6,386 nt of DNA. Source: Candidatus Eiseniibacteriota bacterium. GTDB lineage: Bacteria; JAFGKV01. Position numbers and translations under genes: made by a program. Under the pieces are notes generated by a model that did no database searches, was not told the origin of the DNA, and saw nothing but the letters and a program-made list of their open reading frames with translations. The stretch's first letter is position 1; the number at the start of each line of letters is the position of its first letter. Of this stretch, positions 992 to 6,386 are shown in pieces. The stretch spans positions 1 through 6,386 of the forward strand of contig JALOPK010000193.1 of NCBI GenBank assembly GCA_025453925.1, written 5' to 3'.

Positions 992-2365
992 TCAGTACGC
1001 TGCCGCCAGCTCGGCCTCGGGGAAGTAGTGGTTCAGAATGGCCGCGCAGTCGGCGCCGCCGGCGGCCAAAGCGCCGGCGCCGATCTGGCACATGCCCACG
1101 CCGTGCCCCCACCCTGCTCCGGTCAGCGTGATCTGGCGGGGAATGCCTCCAATCATCTCCCCCGGCATGGCGACGAAGGCCGCGCTCTTCAGGTGGCTGG
1201 ACGACAAGAGCCGGCGGATAGCCAGTTCCTTGCCGATCCTGAGTACCCCCCTTACGCCCTGGATCTCGAGTATCTCGATCCTCCCTGACGATCCCCGGCG
1301 CAACGCCTTCAACCCCTTGACGCTGCCGATTCCCGCCCCGGTCTTGGCTTCGATGAGGGAGGCGAGCCGCTCCTGGGAGAACTCCTCTCTCCAGCGGAAG
1401 AAGTGCTCGGTCGCCCTGTCCATGGGCAGGAGGATCCGGTCGAGGATGCCCGCATCGGTGATGCTGCAGTGCGCAGGTGGGAACCCCATGATCCATGGGA
1501 CGGCTCCGGCCTCCACGGTGAGCGAGTGGGGCCATTCGGGCGGAAGGGGTGAGGCGTCGAGCACGCTCGTGAGGCCGGTCGGCGGCGGACCTCCCCACGC
1601 GGTGGTGAAGTCCTCGGTCACTCCTCCGCAGCACTTGGAGAACCTGGCGTCCACCACGGCGCCCTTCGCGTACAACGCCGTGCCGCGGGTTCGCCGCACT
1701 GCCTGCGAGGCCGCCGCAAGCTTTCGAGACTGCCCGTGGTAGCGCTGACAGTGATCGTCGGCGCAGAGATCGAAGAGGTCGTGATTCCGACGATCGAACC
1801 ATTCCCACATATCGACGCCCGGAGGCCGAGCTTCTTCGACGCTCCGGGGCGGCCCGAGCTGGGCCAGCACCCAGCTCCGCGCCACCACCGCATGGGCTTC
1901 CAGGAAAGGCTCGGGCGCACACGGGTTCATCTCCGAGGAGATCACGCTCTCCAGGTAGTCCTCCAGCCCGACCCGGTTCACGCCGACCAGGGCGCGGGAG
2001 CCGGCAGCGACCAACTCCAGCGAGCCAGGATAGGTCAGATCCTCCCGATGATTCCAGTGGAAGCCCGCGCCCACCGGTACAGCGGGGATGACGAACGTGC
2101 CTGCCTGCCGGCAGGGCGTCAGGATCACCGGCGAAGGCAGGAGCCGGGACGTCTCCTCGCAGGCCACCACGACACCCTGGTCGCCGGGCTCCGCCCTGCA
2201 CCAACCGGGGCCGACTGTCACGTCAGCCAGAGCGTACCTCCCCGCGAGGAAGAACCTCAGAACCGGCAGAGGCGGAGAAACGCCCACGCGGAGCACCGGT
2301 TCGGCACCGATGGAGAGGCTATCAGCGGCAGAGTCGAGCGAGGAGCTCATCCCACGCAGGGTCAT
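992..2365 (-). CDS. SpoIID/LytB-domain protein without signal peptide (putative glycan-strand lytic enzyme)
   Basis: The protein has 457 residues from the ATG at 2365; the preferred start has GGGAGG nine bases upstream. SpoIID of spore formers is a lytic transglycosylase acting on peptidoglycan glycan strands, and LytB relatives modify amidases. Visible family marks: 'GVNRVGLEDYLESVISSEMN' at about 128-147, where Glu145 matches the catalytic Glu of SpoIID; 'EAHAVVARSW' just after; 'CADDHCQRYHG' at about 201-211, matching the Cys/His zinc-loop region described for clostridial SpoIID; 'FSKCCGGVTEDF' at about 242-253; and 'GAGWGHGVGMCQIGA' at about 416-430. The first ~100 residues form an additional beta-rich domain. 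I see no signal peptide, lipobox or membrane helix, which is unusual for a wall enzyme. The detailed motifs match, from memory, a Bacteroidetes subgroup encoded beside DUF4922 and GT2 genes. It is the last gene of the operon and overlaps DUF4922 by 44 bp. Family is sure; a cytoplasmic role is inference. Confidence 0.9.
   Translation of the reverse strand: MTLRGMSSSLDSAADSLSIGAEPVLRVGVSPPLPVLRFFLAGRYALADVTVGPGWCRAEPGDQGVVVACEETSRLLPSPVILTPCRQAGTFVIPAVPVGAGFHWNHREDLTYPGSLELVAAGSRALVGVNRVGLEDYLESVISSEMNPCAPEPFLEAHAVVARSWVLAQLGPPRSVEEARPPGVDMWEWFDRRNHDLFDLCADDHCQRYHGQSRKLAAASQAVRRTRGTALYAKGAVVDARFSKCCGGVTEDFTTAWGGPPPTGLTSVLDASPLPPEWPHSLTVEAGAVPWIMGFPPAHCSITDAGILDRILLPMDRATEHFFRWREEFSQERLASLIEAKTGAGIGSVKGLKALRRGSSGRIEILEIQGVRGVLRIGKELAIRRLLSSSHLKSAAFVAMPGEMIGGIPRQITLTGAGWGHGVGMCQIGAGALAAGGADCAAILNHYFPEAELAAAY
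2104..2115. repeat. 12-bp perfect palindrome inside the SpoIID-like gene
   Basis: CCTGCCGGCAGG reads the same on both strands. On the coding strand it is part of an 18-nt in-frame stretch that encodes Pro-Cys-Arg-Gln-Ala-Gly with an internal GGCAGGCAGGC tandem repeat, in a loop between beta strands of the N-terminal domain. Similar Cys-Arg-Gln-Ala-Gly or Leu-Pro-Ala-Gly-Arg-Gln peptides appear, as I recall, scattered in translated genes of candidate-phylum genomes, suggesting a small dispersed palindromic repeat. It occurs once in this window, so chance cannot be excluded. Confidence 0.45.
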
Positions 2366-3299
2366 TGAGGCAAACCTCCCGGTAGATCCGCGCCAGGGTC
2401 TCCGGATCCATGCGTTCCCAGTCCATAGGTCTGGGCAGAACAACCAGGCCCGCCATCTCCACCGAGCCGGGGCTGATCACGATACGCCGATCCTCACCGA
2501 GCGAGTAGCATGACGGCCGATGTTTGCTTCGCGGGAAAAGCGCTGCCACGAAGCCGCATTCCCGCCACATGACAAGGTTCATGGGGAACTCCCCATCGGC
2601 CATGAGCAGATCCAGCGTCCATTCAATCATCGGGGGAATCAGTGAAGGATCGTCGGCGGTGAGCCGCAGGAATCTCCGCGCTCCGCCTTCGACTGCGGCT
2701 GCGGTGCCCCACGGGGTGAGGCGCTGGCTCACGGGCACCAGGGAGGACGCTTGGGCAGTCAGCGGCAGATCGCCGGCGCGGCCCGCCTGCAGATGGAGGT
2801 GATAGGGAGAGGATGCTCCCGAAGTGGGCCCATTGTAGAGAAACACGGTGTCCTCATCCGCTGCGGCGAGCAACCAAGCGAGATCAGGGAGGGCGGGACG
2901 CAGGCGTTGGGCGACATGCTGCCGATGCGCGAACACCACGTGGTCGCGGATGATGGGTGTCGGGTTCGGAAGTGCCACCAGCAGCTCGCGGACCGCCACC
3001 CCCTTCTCTTCCTGCGGCAGGTTTGAGAGGCACAACGGACACCATGCATCCGGAGTCGGCGCCGCAACCACGCTCGCCAGCCGCGCGGGGTTGTGATGGA
3101 GTTCCACTGAGAGCGGCGCCGAATCGCCAACCGAGATCCACCGCCTGCGCGCCTGCTGCATAGCGGTGATTCCGGCCCGCAGCATCGGCCACTCCGAGCT
3201 GACGCGCCGCACCAGCGTGCCCAAGACCGGGGATGTTCCCTGAGCCCATGCCACACCCATTTGGGCGGGGGTGAGTTCACGGGTACCCCCGGTGCTCAT
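2322..3299 (-). CDS. DUF4922 / HIT-superfamily protein (putative nucleotidyl transferase or phosphorylase)
   Basis: The protein has 325 residues. The ATG at 3299 overlaps the stop of the glycosyltransferase as ATGA, with GAGGG four bases upstream. Key region: 'YNGPTSGASSPYHLHLQAG' at about 155-173. The HxHxQ signature (His167, His169, Gln171) after a GxxSGAS-type loop is the nucleotide-binding/catalytic motif of the GalT, Ap4A phosphorylase and GDP-hexose phosphorylase branch of HIT proteins, in which the middle His becomes nucleotidylated. Upstream are 'CPLC' at 87-90 (possible metal site) and 'NPTPIIRDHVVFAHRQH' at about 112-128, matching the 'NP.PI...H..' strand of DUF4922. The C-terminal part ('FVAALFPRSKHRPS', about 250-263, and 'ISPGSVEMAGLVVLPR', about 275-290) also resembles sugar-nucleotide phosphorylases. 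No signal peptide or membrane segment, so cytoplasmic. The substrate is unknown. A link to the glycosyltransferase, by supplying or recycling an activated sugar, is inference. Confidence 0.83.
   Translation of the reverse strand: MSTGGTRELTPAQMGVAWAQGTSPVLGTLVRRVSSEWPMLRAGITAMQQARRRWISVGDSAPLSVELHHNPARLASVVAAPTPDAWCPLCLSNLPQEEKGVAVRELLVALPNPTPIIRDHVVFAHRQHVAQRLRPALPDLAWLLAAADEDTVFLYNGPTSGASSPYHLHLQAGRAGDLPLTAQASSLVPVSQRLTPWGTAAAVEGGARRFLRLTADDPSLIPPMIEWTLDLLMADGEFPMNLVMWRECGFVAALFPRSKHRPSCYSLGEDRRIVISPGSVEMAGLVVLPRPMDWERMDPETLARIYREVCLNDPAWDELLARLCR
2375..2380 (-). promoter_or_regulatory. Shine-Dalgarno site that fixes the SpoIID-like start
   Basis: On the minus strand this reads GGGAGG, nine bases before the ATG at 2365. 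It supports that ATG over the more upstream in-frame ATG at 2443 and the next one at 2350. It lies within the 3' end of the DUF4922 gene, so translation of the two genes is probably coupled. Confidence 0.7.
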
Positions 3300-4654
3300 C
3301 CGTCCCTCGTTCTGGCTCGAGCTCCTACTTCGACGGTACGCAGCCGGTTCTTGTACGCCTCCCGGCGTCGGTTCAGTTCGGCGGACGGCAGATGGTCCGT
3401 GTTTCCTTCCCATCGTCTCGCCAGATAGACCGGGTCGAAGCTCCGCGCGATGTGATAGTCGCGGCTCACCCGAAGCGCGACGGCATAGTCCTCCCCGTAG
3501 CTCACGTTCGGGAATGGGTGTTCGCGGACGACACCCGTGGCGAAGACCCGGGGAGCGCCGATGCCTGAGACCCGCAGGAGGTTGTTGTGACCGTTCTCGG
3601 CGGTCCACTCGTGGTGCGCCACCAGTCCGGGTGGTATCTCGACCCGCTGCATGTCCACCGTCCGGTATGCGCCGACGGCCATGGCCCATGGTCCCGACCG
3701 GATGAGGCCGATCATGGCCTGCAGCGACTCGTGGCTGGCGTAGACATCATCGGAGTCAAGCTGCACCAAGAATCGCCCCGCCCGAGAAGAGAAGGCGGCG
3801 ACGTTCCAACACCCACCGATGCCGAGATCAGTTCTACCAGGAACAATGATCTGCAAACGAGCATCGCCGGCACTCGCCTCCATGGCCTTCCGGGCGGTAT
3901 CGTCACGGGAGTGGTTGTCCACCATGAGCACGTTGAACGGGAAGTCTGTCTCTTGGGACAAGGCGCTCGAGACCGCGTCTCCGATGGTGCGAACCCTGTC
4001 GCGGACCGAGATGACCACCGACGCGTCGACGGGGTAGACGGCGTGATCAATGAATCGGCGCTCCCGGGGAGGAAGCCAGGCGTCTACCCGTCGGAGGTGG
4101 TCGGTGAGGACCGTCTCCAGCTCTCGCTGAAGCGATTCCGTGCCGGCTCGAACGTAACCGAACAGGTCCTCGGGCACATCGCGCACGGTGCGGGCGATCT
4201 CCTCCGGCAGACGCATGGCGCCTTGGCGAAGCAATCCCAGCCGCAGCCCGTACCGGACGGCGCGGTGCGAAACCACCTCTGCGGGAAGGCTCTCGATGGC
4301 CGCCAGCACCGCGGCAGAACGGGCCAGCCAGACCGGTCCCGCGTCAAACTCCTCCCGCAGGCTTCCAGGCTCGGGATCGAGGGTGTCCACCCGGCCGGCT
4401 CGGCCCTCGTAGTCGCCGTAGACCAGAGCTGCTCCGCCTTCGGCGGCTGCACAACACCTCGACCATGCGTGGGGCAGGGGCTCGACACTGCCTCCGCCCC
4501 ACACCATGCCCATCCATACTCCGGCCTTGCGCGCCGCCGCCACCAGCGAGGCGCGGATCGAATCTGCCTGGGCTTCCTGGCGGAGATCACCGGTCGGAGC
4601 ATCATCCGAGACAAATGAAGTCCCCGGCTCCACCCAGACGGTCAGCTTCTCCAA
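3296..4654 (-). CDS. Family 2 glycosyltransferase with a degenerate N-terminal half-domain
   Basis: The protein has 452 residues. It starts with TTG at 4654, chosen because GGAGG lies six bases upstream and the next in-frame ATG is about 48 codons later. The C-terminal half is a full GT-A domain: 'DASVVISVRDRVRTIGDAV' from about 210, 'VLMVDNHSRDDT' at about 242-253, 'RTDLGIGGCWNVA' at about 274-286, the metal-binding DxD-type 'QLDSDDVY' at about 298-305, 'GIGAPRVFATGVVRE' at about 364-378, and 'YGEDYAVALRVSRDY' at about 386-400, whose Glu-Asp matches the catalytic-base motif of GT2 enzymes. The N-terminal ~200 residues contain 'LVYGDYEGRAG', 'PGSLREEFDAGPVWLARS' and 'RYGLRLGLLRQGAMRLPEEIA', which look like the acceptor half of another GT2 domain with the nucleotide half lost or diverged. 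There are no membrane helices, so it is probably cytoplasmic. It transfers a sugar from an NDP donor to an unknown acceptor. It overlaps DUF1460 by 13 bp and DUF4922 by 4 bp. Confidence 0.88.
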   Translation of the reverse strand: MEKLTVWVEPGTSFVSDDAPTGDLRQEAQADSIRASLVAAARKAGVWMGMVWGGGSVEPLPHAWSRCCAAAEGGAALVYGDYEGRAGRVDTLDPEPGSLREEFDAGPVWLARSAAVLAAIESLPAEVVSHRAVRYGLRLGLLRQGAMRLPEEIARTVRDVPEDLFGYVRAGTESLQRELETVLTDHLRRVDAWLPPRERRFIDHAVYPVDASVVISVRDRVRTIGDAVSSALSQETDFPFNVLMVDNHSRDDTARKAMEASAGDARLQIIVPGRTDLGIGGCWNVAAFSSRAGRFLVQLDSDDVYASHESLQAMIGLIRSGPWAMAVGAYRTVDMQRVEIPPGLVAHHEWTAENGHNNLLRVSGIGAPRVFATGVVREHPFPNVSYGEDYAVALRVSRDYHIARSFDPVYLARRWEGNTDHLPSAELNRRREAYKNRLRTVEVGARARTRDG

Positions 4655-5307
4655 TCGACACCTCCGCGAAGCCTCGCGAGCAGCAGCCCCGCACCTCGCT
4701 CCCGCGACAGGAAGGCCGCTAGTGGTTCCTCGATCACTCCCCCCTCGGCACGGGATGCGTGCCGTAGAAGCGGCCCCGCCAGCAGCCCGGCATGATACAC
4801 ATCCAGATCGTCCCGCACCGAAGCGAAGGCGACGAGATCAGCGGCGGGGATCGCGCCGGACCAGGGGTGGAGCCGAAGGCGTACGCTGGCCCGGGGGATC
4901 CCAGGGACCAGCGTGAGCACCCTCACCGTATCTGTTGCGTCCCGGGCGGGATCGACCGTCTGCAGCAGACCCCGTCGCTCATGGGCAGCCAACCAGTGCG
5001 ACCAGATGTGGAGGCGATGCTCCCATCGTGGTGGCCGTCCGCCATACCGTATCTCAATCAGTCTGGCGCGGTATTCCTGGGCGGATCGCGACAGTGCGAG
5101 GGCCAGCGCCGCCTCAACGAAGGTGACGCAGTCGAAGGAAGTCAAGGCCAGCACCAGACGCTCGGGCTTCTCTGGTCCTCCCCGCAGCGGATTGCCCCTG
5201 TAGCGTGCCCCTAGGAGCAGGGCGGACGCGGCCACCAGCCGCTCCCGCTGCCCCGCGGTTTCCTCCAGGGCGGTGAGGAGCCTTTTGGCATCAGCTCGCC
5301 ACGACAT
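4642..5307 (-). CDS. DUF1460 NlpC/P60-like protein (putative N-acetylmuramoyl-L-alanine amidase-like) without signal peptide
   Basis: The protein has 221 residues and starts at the ATG at 5307, with GGGAG five bases upstream. DUF1460 proteins have a papain-like NlpC/P60 fold and are annotated as N-acetylmuramoyl-L-alanine amidase-like peptidoglycan hydrolases. Visible marks: 'YRGNPLRGG' at about 36-44; 'TSFDCVTFVEAALALA' at about 57-72, whose Cys60 is the probable nucleophile; 'EIRYGG.....EHRLHIWSHWL' at about 85-106, matching the family's 'IRY...RLHY.SDW' block; 'DVYHAGLLAG' at about 169-178, whose His172 is the probable catalytic His; and 'LRHASRAEGGVIEEPLAAFL' at about 181-200. The length is shorter than usual for the family because the N-terminal export signal is absent: the protein opens with a charged amphipathic helix. 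It overlaps the Fe-S gene by 17 bp upstream and the glycosyltransferase by 13 bp downstream. Family fairly certain; the bond cleaved here and a cytoplasmic location are inferences. Confidence 0.84.
   Translation of the reverse strand: MSWRADAKRLLTALEETAGQRERLVAASALLLGARYRGNPLRGGPEKPERLVLALTSFDCVTFVEAALALALSRSAQEYRARLIEIRYGGRPPRWEHRLHIWSHWLAAHERRGLLQTVDPARDATDTVRVLTLVPGIPRASVRLRLHPWSGAIPAADLVAFASVRDDLDVYHAGLLAGPLLRHASRAEGGVIEEPLAAFLSRERGAGLLLARLRGGVDWRS
4661..4665 (-). promoter_or_regulatory. Shine-Dalgarno site supporting a TTG start
   Basis: On the minus strand this is GGAGG (extended GGAGGTG), six bases before the TTG at 4654. The strong match and ideal spacing make TTG the likely initiator of the glycosyltransferase. 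It lies within the 3' end of the DUF1460-like gene. Confidence 0.7.
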
Positions 5308-6386
5308 CGATGCTCCCTTGCCGCAGCAGGCAGAAGAGATCAGTCACTTCCAGATCGGCCCGCTCCAAAGTGCTCTGCAGCCGAAGGCCGTCACGGCAGG
5401 ACGGGCACCCCGACACGACCCGCCGGATGCACGCCGCGCGTATGGCCCCGGAGAGCCGTTCCGCGAGCATCAGACCAACATCAGGGTGCTCGATCCTTCC
5501 GATTCCCGCCATTCCGCAACACTGGTCCAGCCGCACCGGGTCGTATCCGCACTCCGCCAGCAGCCGCATCTGGGAGGATGCCGCCTGGGGTGTCGCGTGA
5601 CATGGCACCTTCAGGCCGATAGTCTCCCCGGGACCTTGGCGCTGGACCCGGTCGGCAGTCCGCTTCACCACATACTCCGCGGGGTCGGCGACGACCAAGA
5701 GCTCTTTGCTTCCTCCCGCTTCGGTCTGAGCCATGCGCAGGGATTCCTGGCATGTTGGGCAACTAGACATGATGACCGCCCGCGGAACACCGTATTCCCC
5801 ACAGGCCGCGCGCGCCGCCGCACAGATCCGGCGCAACAGCTCGGATCGTCGGGCGCGGGCGGCCTCGAGGTCTCCTGAGGCGGTGAATGGGAACCCGCAG
5901 CACATGTCTGGTGAGAAGTCGAGAAACGGGATGCCGGCGGCACGGAAGAACGCGTCCTCGTGGAGACTGGCATCGGCCTGCCCCACGGTGCCCACGCACC
6001 CCTTGAACCGTACCAGTACCTCCCCACCGATGGCAAACAGGCGGGTGTCTCCCACCAGTGTGAGATCAGACGTGACTCCCGCCACAGACCGGCCGGAACG
6101 AGGATACCGATGCCACCCCGGCGCCGGCAGGGCGGCATAGGCGACGAGGGAACGGGGTGCGGATCCGGCGACCAGCCGCGACAGCGGCCGCATCGCGTGC
6201 TGGAGTGCAGCCACGCCCCAGAGGGTTCCGGCCCGGGGAGTAGGCGCCAGGAACAGCCGGTGCAGCAGGCGGGATCGCCAGGAACCGGTGGTGACGGGGC
6301 GCTGCATCGCCTCGGCGATCTCCTTGAGCGTGATCGACGCGGGGCAGTCTGCATCGCATCGCCCACAGGATATGCAGGCGGCCATT
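5291..6386 (-). CDS. Cysteine-rich (CCG) Fe-S oxidoreductase subunit, GlcF/LutA/HdrD-like, 5' partial
   Basis: About 364 residues are visible, and the frame remains open at the right edge. An ATG falls at 6385, but it sits three residues before a cluster motif, so it is probably internal and the N-terminus is missing. In order: a 4Fe-4S motif 'CISCGRCDADCPA' at about 4-16; a first CCG domain with Cys130, 'DMCCGFPF' at about 160-167 and 'SSCPTC' at about 207-212; and a second CCG domain with 'PCHAT' at about 261-265, 'DQCCGMAGIGRIEH' at about 287-300 and 'SGCPSC' at about 325-330. Paired CCG domains after ferredoxin clusters are typical of glycolate or lactate oxidase Fe-S subunits, heterodisulfide-reductase-like proteins and FAD/Fe-S fusion oxidases. 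The 'CCGMAG' form favours the FAD-linked oxidase group. It would pass electrons from a flavin partner to a membrane acceptor; whether a FAD domain is fused lies beyond the window. It overlaps the DUF1460 gene by 17 bp. The stop is TGA at 5291-5293. Confidence 0.82.
   Translation of the reverse strand, partial: MAACISCGRCDADCPASITLKEIAEAMQRPVTTGSWRSRLLHRLFLAPTPRAGTLWGVAALQHAMRPLSRLVAGSAPRSLVAYAALPAPGWHRYPRSGRSVAGVTSDLTLVGDTRLFAIGGEVLVRFKGCVGTVGQADASLHEDAFFRAAGIPFLDFSPDMCCGFPFTASGDLEAARARRSELLRRICAAARAACGEYGVPRAVIMSSCPTCQESLRMAQTEAGGSKELLVVADPAEYVVKRTADRVQRQGPGETIGLKVPCHATPQAASSQMRLLAECGYDPVRLDQCCGMAGIGRIEHPDVGLMLAERLSGAIRAACIRRVVSGCPSCRDGLRLQSTLERADLEVTDLFCLLRQGSIDVVAS
5313..5317 (-). promoter_or_regulatory. 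Shine-Dalgarno site of the DUF1460-like gene
   Basis: On the minus strand this reads GGGAG (within AAGGGAG), five bases before the ATG at 5307. It is embedded in the last codons of the Fe-S oxidoreductase gene and supports the short DUF1460 form that lacks an export signal. Confidence 0.6.

Follow-up and report, generated by a model that had tools for sequence, protein, structure and literature searches.

We find that three enzymes encoded by overlapping genes in a 6,386-nucleotide stretch of DNA from a Candidatus Eiseniibacteriota bacterium (JALOPK010000193.1, hereafter the window, which is one whole contig, G000:C210, of draft genome G000) recur as a set in six or more bacterial groups. These enzymes, a glycosyltransferase of family 2 (GT2), a DUF4922 protein and a SpoIID-type glycan enzyme, form the core of a module to which the fourth gene of the set, encoding a DUF1460 amidase, belongs only sporadically. 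We propose, with a probability of roughly 0.6, that the module carries out cytoplasmic salvage of the disaccharides GlcNAc-anhMurNAc and GlcNAc-MurNAc (GlcNAc, N-acetylglucosamine; MurNAc, N-acetylmuramic acid; anhMurNAc, its 1,6-anhydro form). The basis for this reading is the companionship and fusion of the core genes, the cytoplasmic location predicted for their products, their intact catalytic residues, and, in several phyla, neighbouring genes for importing muropeptides and recycling amino sugars. At the level of the pathway the proposal is well supported, whereas the roles of the individual enzymes are inferred.

Gene order and distribution of the module

The four open reading frames (ORFs) span positions 992-5307, all on the minus strand, and overlap by 13, 4 and 44 bp in the order DUF1460-GT2-DUF4922-SpoIID. 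An earlier note on this DNA had described this arrangement, and its coordinates are confirmed; the families are confirmed by Pfam and NCBIfam profile scans, in which all four family matches exceed curated cut-offs. The set extends, moreover, to a fifth gene (see below). The same note mentioned relatives of the GT2, DUF4922 and SpoIID proteins in Bacteroidetes and suggested conservation across phyla, which the genomes bear out. Among 148 evenly drawn Bacteroidota genomes, strong matches to DUF4922 and matches to GT2 fall in the identical 22, with the two genes adjacent or fused in 19 of these and unlinked in 3 (G182, G190, G240); their co-occurrence even when unlinked argues for interdependence. 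An alignment scan of genome contigs with GT2 gave at least 592 confirmed stretches, and the best 80 of these include loci from Bacteroidota, Ignavibacteria, Syntrophales/Desulfobacterota, Planctomycetota, Verrucomicrobia, Acidobacteria and Myxococcota. Since orthologues stay together across phyla, the grouping of these genes is not due to chance.

A survey of neighbours within six genes of GT2, made on 43 loci flanked by 5 kb or more on each side, recovered DUF4922 in 37, SpoIID in 27 and the permease AmpG in 20, followed by a NagK/MurK-type kinase (9), MurQ (5), AmgK (5), MurU (4), NamZ (3) and NagZ-like GH3 proteins (3). The recurrent association of GT2, DUF4922 and SpoIID for which the earlier note had proposed a neighbourhood check is therefore found, but DUF1460, which it had counted in the four-gene set, lies near GT2 in only 2 of the 43. 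Peptidoglycan-salvage neighbours are seen across Bacteroidota, Ignavibacteria and Desulfobacterota; representatives confirmed the family of AmpG, MurQ, MurU, AmgK, GH3, the kinase and a Golvesin-domain ‘xanthan lyase’, while NamZ was recognised from sequence only.

Fusions join GT2 to DUF4922 at 8 loci, DUF4922 to SpoIID at 5, and all three at 6; several Bacteroidales have pairwise fusions or a triple fusion that forms a single protein of 1,200-1,300 aa. In Bacteroides finegoldii a single GT2-DUF4922 protein precedes SpoIID, a permease of the AmpG type and a kinase resembling NagK/MurK, and in Prevotella sp. oral taxon 299 GT2, DUF4922 and SpoIID form one chain (ORF of 1,265 aa) followed by the AmpG-type permease.

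Several loci depart from this arrangement. DUF4922 was not detected beside GT2 by the models used in the Verrucomicrobia/Pirellulales loci L034 and L049 or the Acidobacteria loci L076 and L091; in the latter two, the neighbour of GT2 is a larger protein that includes SpoIID (693 and 992 aa). These four loci may hide a divergent DUF4922 or differ in use. In Parabacteroides (L014, 3848-10190; L089; L093) GT2-DUF4922 is followed by SppA, LpxK and ThiL, with no SpoIID nearby, and at L014 a Golvesin-domain ‘xanthan lyase’ precedes it. The Bacteroidota genome G155 holds two GT2-DUF4922 copies (G155:C67 and G155:C140), one with an in-frame TAG in GT2 and a DUF4922 match split in two. In an AT-rich genome from another phylum (L011, 7917-10113, plus strand) GT2 is apparently broken into two ORFs (7917-8564 and 8575-9063), and the DUF4922 that comes next is divergent, an arrangement suggestive of decay.

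Predicted functions of the encoded proteins

The GT2 protein (3296-4654, minus strand, 452 aa) starts with a TTG that aligns with the ATG of a sister genome, and matches PF00535 with 45.8 bits against a cut-off of 23.3. Its structural model (predicted local distance difference test, pLDDT, 91.5) comprises an N-terminal partial GT-A domain and a C-terminal catalytic GT-A domain that resembles UDP-sugar transferases in structure comparison and carries a DxD motif (D300-S-D302-D303) and an acidic pair (E388-D389), both invariant in 38 orthologues. The best structural match of the whole protein, both domains included, is K4 chondroitin polymerase (Z 24.7), at a root-mean-square deviation (rmsd) of 22 Å, a large value that reflects a different domain arrangement. 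Identity to the window protein is 35-42% in Bacteroidales records, and in a tree of GT2 proteins the window's phylum forms a separate clade on a long branch.

By its fold and nucleotidyl-transfer motif, the DUF4922 protein (2322-3299, minus strand, 325 aa; PF16269, 86.6 bits, above the curated cut-off) is a member of the GalT/ApaP (HIT) superfamily in the structural model, and a putative nucleotidyl-transferring enzyme. The model (pLDDT 95.1) best matches the yeast diadenosine tetraphosphate (Ap4A) phosphorylase Apa2 (Z 22.4 over 268 residues, rmsd 3.5 Å), followed by ADP-glucose phosphorylase and GalT at Z of about 9-10. With these enzymes it shares a like fold and the motif HxHxQ (H167-L-H169-L-Q171), invariant in 39 orthologues, but it is only 12-17% identical to them; it also has C87 and C90. 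A role as a HIT hydrolase was considered and rejected, as the motif is HxHxQ and not HxHxH, and phosphorylases match over the full length whereas HIT hydrolases do so over only ~95 residues. DUF4922 proteins of Bacteroidales records are ~23-33% identical to that of the window.

SpoIID (992-2365, minus strand, 457 aa), a SpoIID/LytB-type protein, matches PF08486 with 71.3 bits, over the cut-off, and passes that of TIGR02669 too; its profile matches the solved SpoIID structures 4rwr, 5i1t and 5txu, and identity is about 37-42% in Bacteroidales records. E145 aligns with residue E101 of SpoIID from C. difficile, and, at near-equal spacing, H195/C201/H205/C206 resemble H134/C140/H145/C146, residues whose catalytic and zinc-binding roles are known in that enzyme (PMC6221140). 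All five are invariant in 30 orthologues. The four form a putative zinc site, a correspondence that rests on motif spacing, as the profile alignment does not place the zinc residues cleanly. SpoIID acts on denuded glycans (PMC6221140), a preference with which prior cleavage by an amidase, for instance DUF1460, would agree.

Hydropathy analysis found no hydrophobic segment of transmembrane (TM) strength in any of 38 GT2 orthologues, and neither such a segment nor a hydrophobic N-terminus in any of 30 SpoIID orthologues, which rules out a signal peptide on SpoIID; none of 39 DUF4922 orthologues has a hydrophobic segment near the N-terminus, and one reaches 2.0 internally. Without signal peptides or TM segments, all three core proteins are predicted to be cytoplasmic. 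For SpoIID this is unusual, and every characterised member that we know of acts outside the cytoplasm. By sequence, the window protein is a member of the family, yet not a classical exported or membrane-anchored SpoIID. It shares with the sporulation SpoIID lytic transglycosylase the fold family, the catalytic Glu and the C. difficile-type zinc residues, but differs in its missing membrane anchor, its predicted cytoplasmic location, its fusion to GT2/DUF4922 in some genomes, and its hosts, which are Gram-negative-type bacteria without known sporulation.

The DUF1460 protein (4642-5307, minus strand, 221 aa) is a predicted N-acetylmuramoyl-L-alanine amidase of the AmiA-like NlpC/P60 type. It matches PF07313 with 90 bits against a cut-off of 27, has a Cys-His-His site (C60, H172, H183) and aligns with the solved members 2p1g, 2im9 and 4h4j/4q5k/4q68. 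In work by Xu from 2014, AmiA of B. uniformis is said to cleave GlcNAc-anhMurNAc-peptide into disaccharide and peptide.

Association with AmpG and AnmK

A pattern links the module to muropeptide import in the 148 Bacteroidota genomes, where the module occurs in 22, AnmK in 103 and AmpG (E<1e-45) in 35. Every one of the 35 AmpG genomes has AnmK only (19), the module only (12) or both (4), and a looser AmpG threshold yields one exception (G113). In genomes that lack AnmK, the module is present in 12/12 with AmpG versus 2/33 without (Fisher 3e-9, ignoring phylogeny), whereas the association is weak in those that carry AnmK (4/23 versus 4/80). Of the Desulfobacterota sampled, 11 genomes have the module and none of these 11 has AnmK; AmpG is present in 10 of them versus 72/137 of those without it (p 0.02), and a Bacteroidota-type AmpG in 8/11 versus 7/137. 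Across 50 module genomes reached through loci, AnmK (PF03702) is absent from 37. At one site in the Desulfobacterota sample (G379:C122, 5616-9970) a Bacteroidota-type AmpG has AnmK ~2 kb away in the place that the module takes in other genomes, in line with interchangeability.

Comparison with known recycling systems

The closest described system is that of Tannerella forsythia, in which a single transcript linked by experiment to muropeptide use (Tanf_08345-08385) runs xanthan lyase-gtf-gtf-lytB-ampG-ybbC-murT-murK-murQ, and the gtf, gtf and lytB genes were given no role (PMC5388701). This bacterium grows on GlcNAc-anhMurNAc, requires AmpG to use this sugar and GlcNAc-MurNAc, and is without AnmK, and the fate of its anhMurNAc ‘remains to be explored’ (PMC7670621); furthermore, its MurK does not phosphorylate anhMurNAc (PMC5790795). 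An enzyme that converts anhMurNAc to MurNAc is consequently missing. The unassigned genes appear to be this module: the two gtf genes and lytB (amidase enhancer) stand directly before ampG, with neighbours of the types found at L024, L050, L060 and L097, and the gene order of relatives, L050 and L060 among them, leads us to infer that DUF4922 corresponds to the second gtf and this SpoIID to lytB. The window differs in having no AmpG, MurT, MurK or MurQ near the module.

Compared with E. coli-type recycling (AmpG, AmpD, NagZ, AnmK, MurQ), the module would process the same imported anhydro-disaccharide after an amidase, but none of its enzymes matches NagZ or AnmK in Pfam and NCBIfam scans, and without a kinase in the core its chemistry must differ. 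Some Desulfobacterota and Bacteroidales have genes of Pseudomonas-type salvage, AmgK and MurU, next to the module, and the window's phylum has a pair resembling them. The substrate of AmgK is free MurNAc, so that ring opening has to come first, and the module is a candidate for that step.

The earlier note's suggestion of an undescribed pathway thus stands insofar as gtf/gtf/lytB have no role, but the T. forsythia operon was already described as one transcript linked to muropeptide use. Beyond the papers on that operon we found none that gives the module a function, in a search made largely without subscription literature, where absence is not proof. The module is therefore partly known, from an unassigned segment of a single species' operon, while no description of a cross-phylum module with a cytoplasmic SpoIID was found in the literature searched.

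Neighbouring genes and the window's phylum

A fifth gene (5291-6385, minus strand; PF02754) overlaps DUF1460 by 17 bp, its 5' end lying beyond the contig, and encodes the C-terminal part of a 2-hydroxyacid-dehydrogenase-like protein with flavin adenine dinucleotide (FAD) and Fe-S (CCG) domains. Its full-length homologue in a sister genome (L009, 6435-9527) has ~1,030 aa with FAD_binding_4 and CCG domains. The five genes keep an identical order in 3/3 genomes examined of the phylum, where this protein is always encoded upstream of the others and is a probable operon partner. A related flavoprotein is encoded downstream of DUF4922 in the Ignavibacteriales locus L035 (2662-5589). Oxidation of D-lactate, the MurQ product, by the fifth protein was considered; it is possible but unproven, as no MurQ was found in the phylum and L035 is the only other locus in which a comparable flavoprotein was flagged. 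On the plus strand, positions 1-930 encode the C-terminal end of a secreted protein, in which profile matches identify a FlgD_ig/type IX secretion system (T9SS) type A sorting tail; homologues of this protein come after the module in both sister genomes.

All three phylum genomes (completeness 82% for G000, 94% and 98% for the sister genomes) contain an AmgK/MurU-like pair, with a moderate similarity of 31-40% over part of the length. The AmgK-like kinase adjoins a MurU-like nucleotidyltransferase and a methyltransferase (L106, 5667-6755, minus; L107, 208-2272, minus; L108, 1681-3803, plus). Protein queries (six proteins joined in one query) detected no AnmK, MurQ or NagK-like protein in these genomes.

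Proposed pathway and alternative explanations

In the salvage pathway that we propose, DUF1460 would strip the stem peptide from GlcNAc-anhMurNAc-peptide, and the cytoplasmic SpoIID would then act on the muramyl C1 bond, most likely by opening the anhydro ring. This would be a reverse or hydrolytic variant of its usual chemistry, the formation of 1,6-anhydro-MurNAc, and would do the job of AnmK without ATP. GT2 would handle the GlcNAc-MurNAc bond by way of a nucleotide sugar, which DUF4922 would interconvert with a sugar-1-phosphate, and together they would recover the energy of the glycosidic bond rather than waste it by NagZ-type hydrolysis. The products may feed the MurK/MurQ or AmgK/MurU routes. 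The SpoIID step and the joint GT2 and DUF4922 step are the least certain. A specific version, which we offer tentatively and regard as possible but doubtful, is a kinase-free, nucleotide-sugar-coupled route in which SpoIID opens the 1,6-anhydro ring, and a reverse GT2 reaction and the GalT-fold phosphorylase yield sugar-1-phosphate, sometimes within one polypeptide.

Several observations weigh against salvage. The two GT-A domains of GT2 make it most similar to glycan polymerases and so point to synthesis, and we know of no precedent for the opening of a 1,6-anhydro bond by SpoIID. Neither SpoIID nor a salvage gene lies nearby in 22 of 83 loci (several at contig ends), and the family profile found no AmpG in the three phylum genomes. 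In addition, the correlation between module, AmpG and AnmK in Bacteroidota is confounded by phylogeny, AnmK is present in 13/50 module genomes, many of them Ignavibacteria, and most AmpG genomes of Desulfobacterota are without both AnmK and DUF4922, so that the either/or rule fails there. The last two observations rule out the module as a strict replacement for AnmK.

The main rival is a synthetic role, since tandem GT-A proteins are typically polymerases. Under this unlikely alternative, GT2 would build a soluble glycan or glycoconjugate in the cytoplasm by polymerising nucleotide sugars of salvaged GlcNAc/MurNAc (or others), with DUF4922 providing or regulating the nucleotide sugar and SpoIID trimming the product or setting it free. 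The match of the whole GT2 to the two-domain K4 chondroitin synthase would fit, as would the usual cutting of MurNAc-GlcNAc chains by SpoIID (PMC6221140) and the former description of the T. forsythia operon as glycosylation-related (PMC5388701). However, the neighbours are import, kinase and etherase genes, not lipid carriers, flippases or export genes, and a purely synthetic role leaves the AmpG link in AnmK-less genomes unexplained. The earlier note left open whether the module builds or recycles a glycan in the cytoplasm; the core proteins do look cytoplasmic, and the context favours recycling over building.

It is improbable that the module instead serves signalling, with DUF4922 as an Ap4A-type phosphorylase that couples a nucleotide alarmone to muropeptide supply, and GT2 and SpoIID working on the fragments to sense or detoxify them. 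The closeness of DUF4922 to Apa2 and its HxHxQ motif agree with such a role, but its superfamily includes nucleotide-sugar phosphorylases (2h39), and the strict 22/22 co-occurrence and fusion with GT2 fit a shared sugar-nucleotide substrate better than Ap4A. Periplasmic remodelling, in which the sacculus is the target of SpoIID and DUF1460 and loose operon packing accounts for their linkage to GT2/DUF4922, is very improbable. It would place SpoIID where its characterised relatives known to us act, and DUF1460 enzymes reportedly act on muropeptides (again, Xu in 2014, as cited in PMC10318531), but signal peptides and TM segments are absent from 30/30 SpoIID orthologues, and at L016 SpoIID is fused to the soluble GT2 and DUF4922 in one chain.

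Implications

Most of what is known about cell-wall recycling comes from Proteobacteria. Bacteroidales are dominant in the human gut and release muropeptides that are immunologically active. They are often without AnmK yet import anhydro-muropeptides, and the module is a tangible and widely distributed candidate whose active sites are invariant and which the fused proteins make directly testable. If the salvage role is true, it would be the first cytoplasmic role of a SpoIID-family protein known to us, and DUF4922 would gain a pathway.

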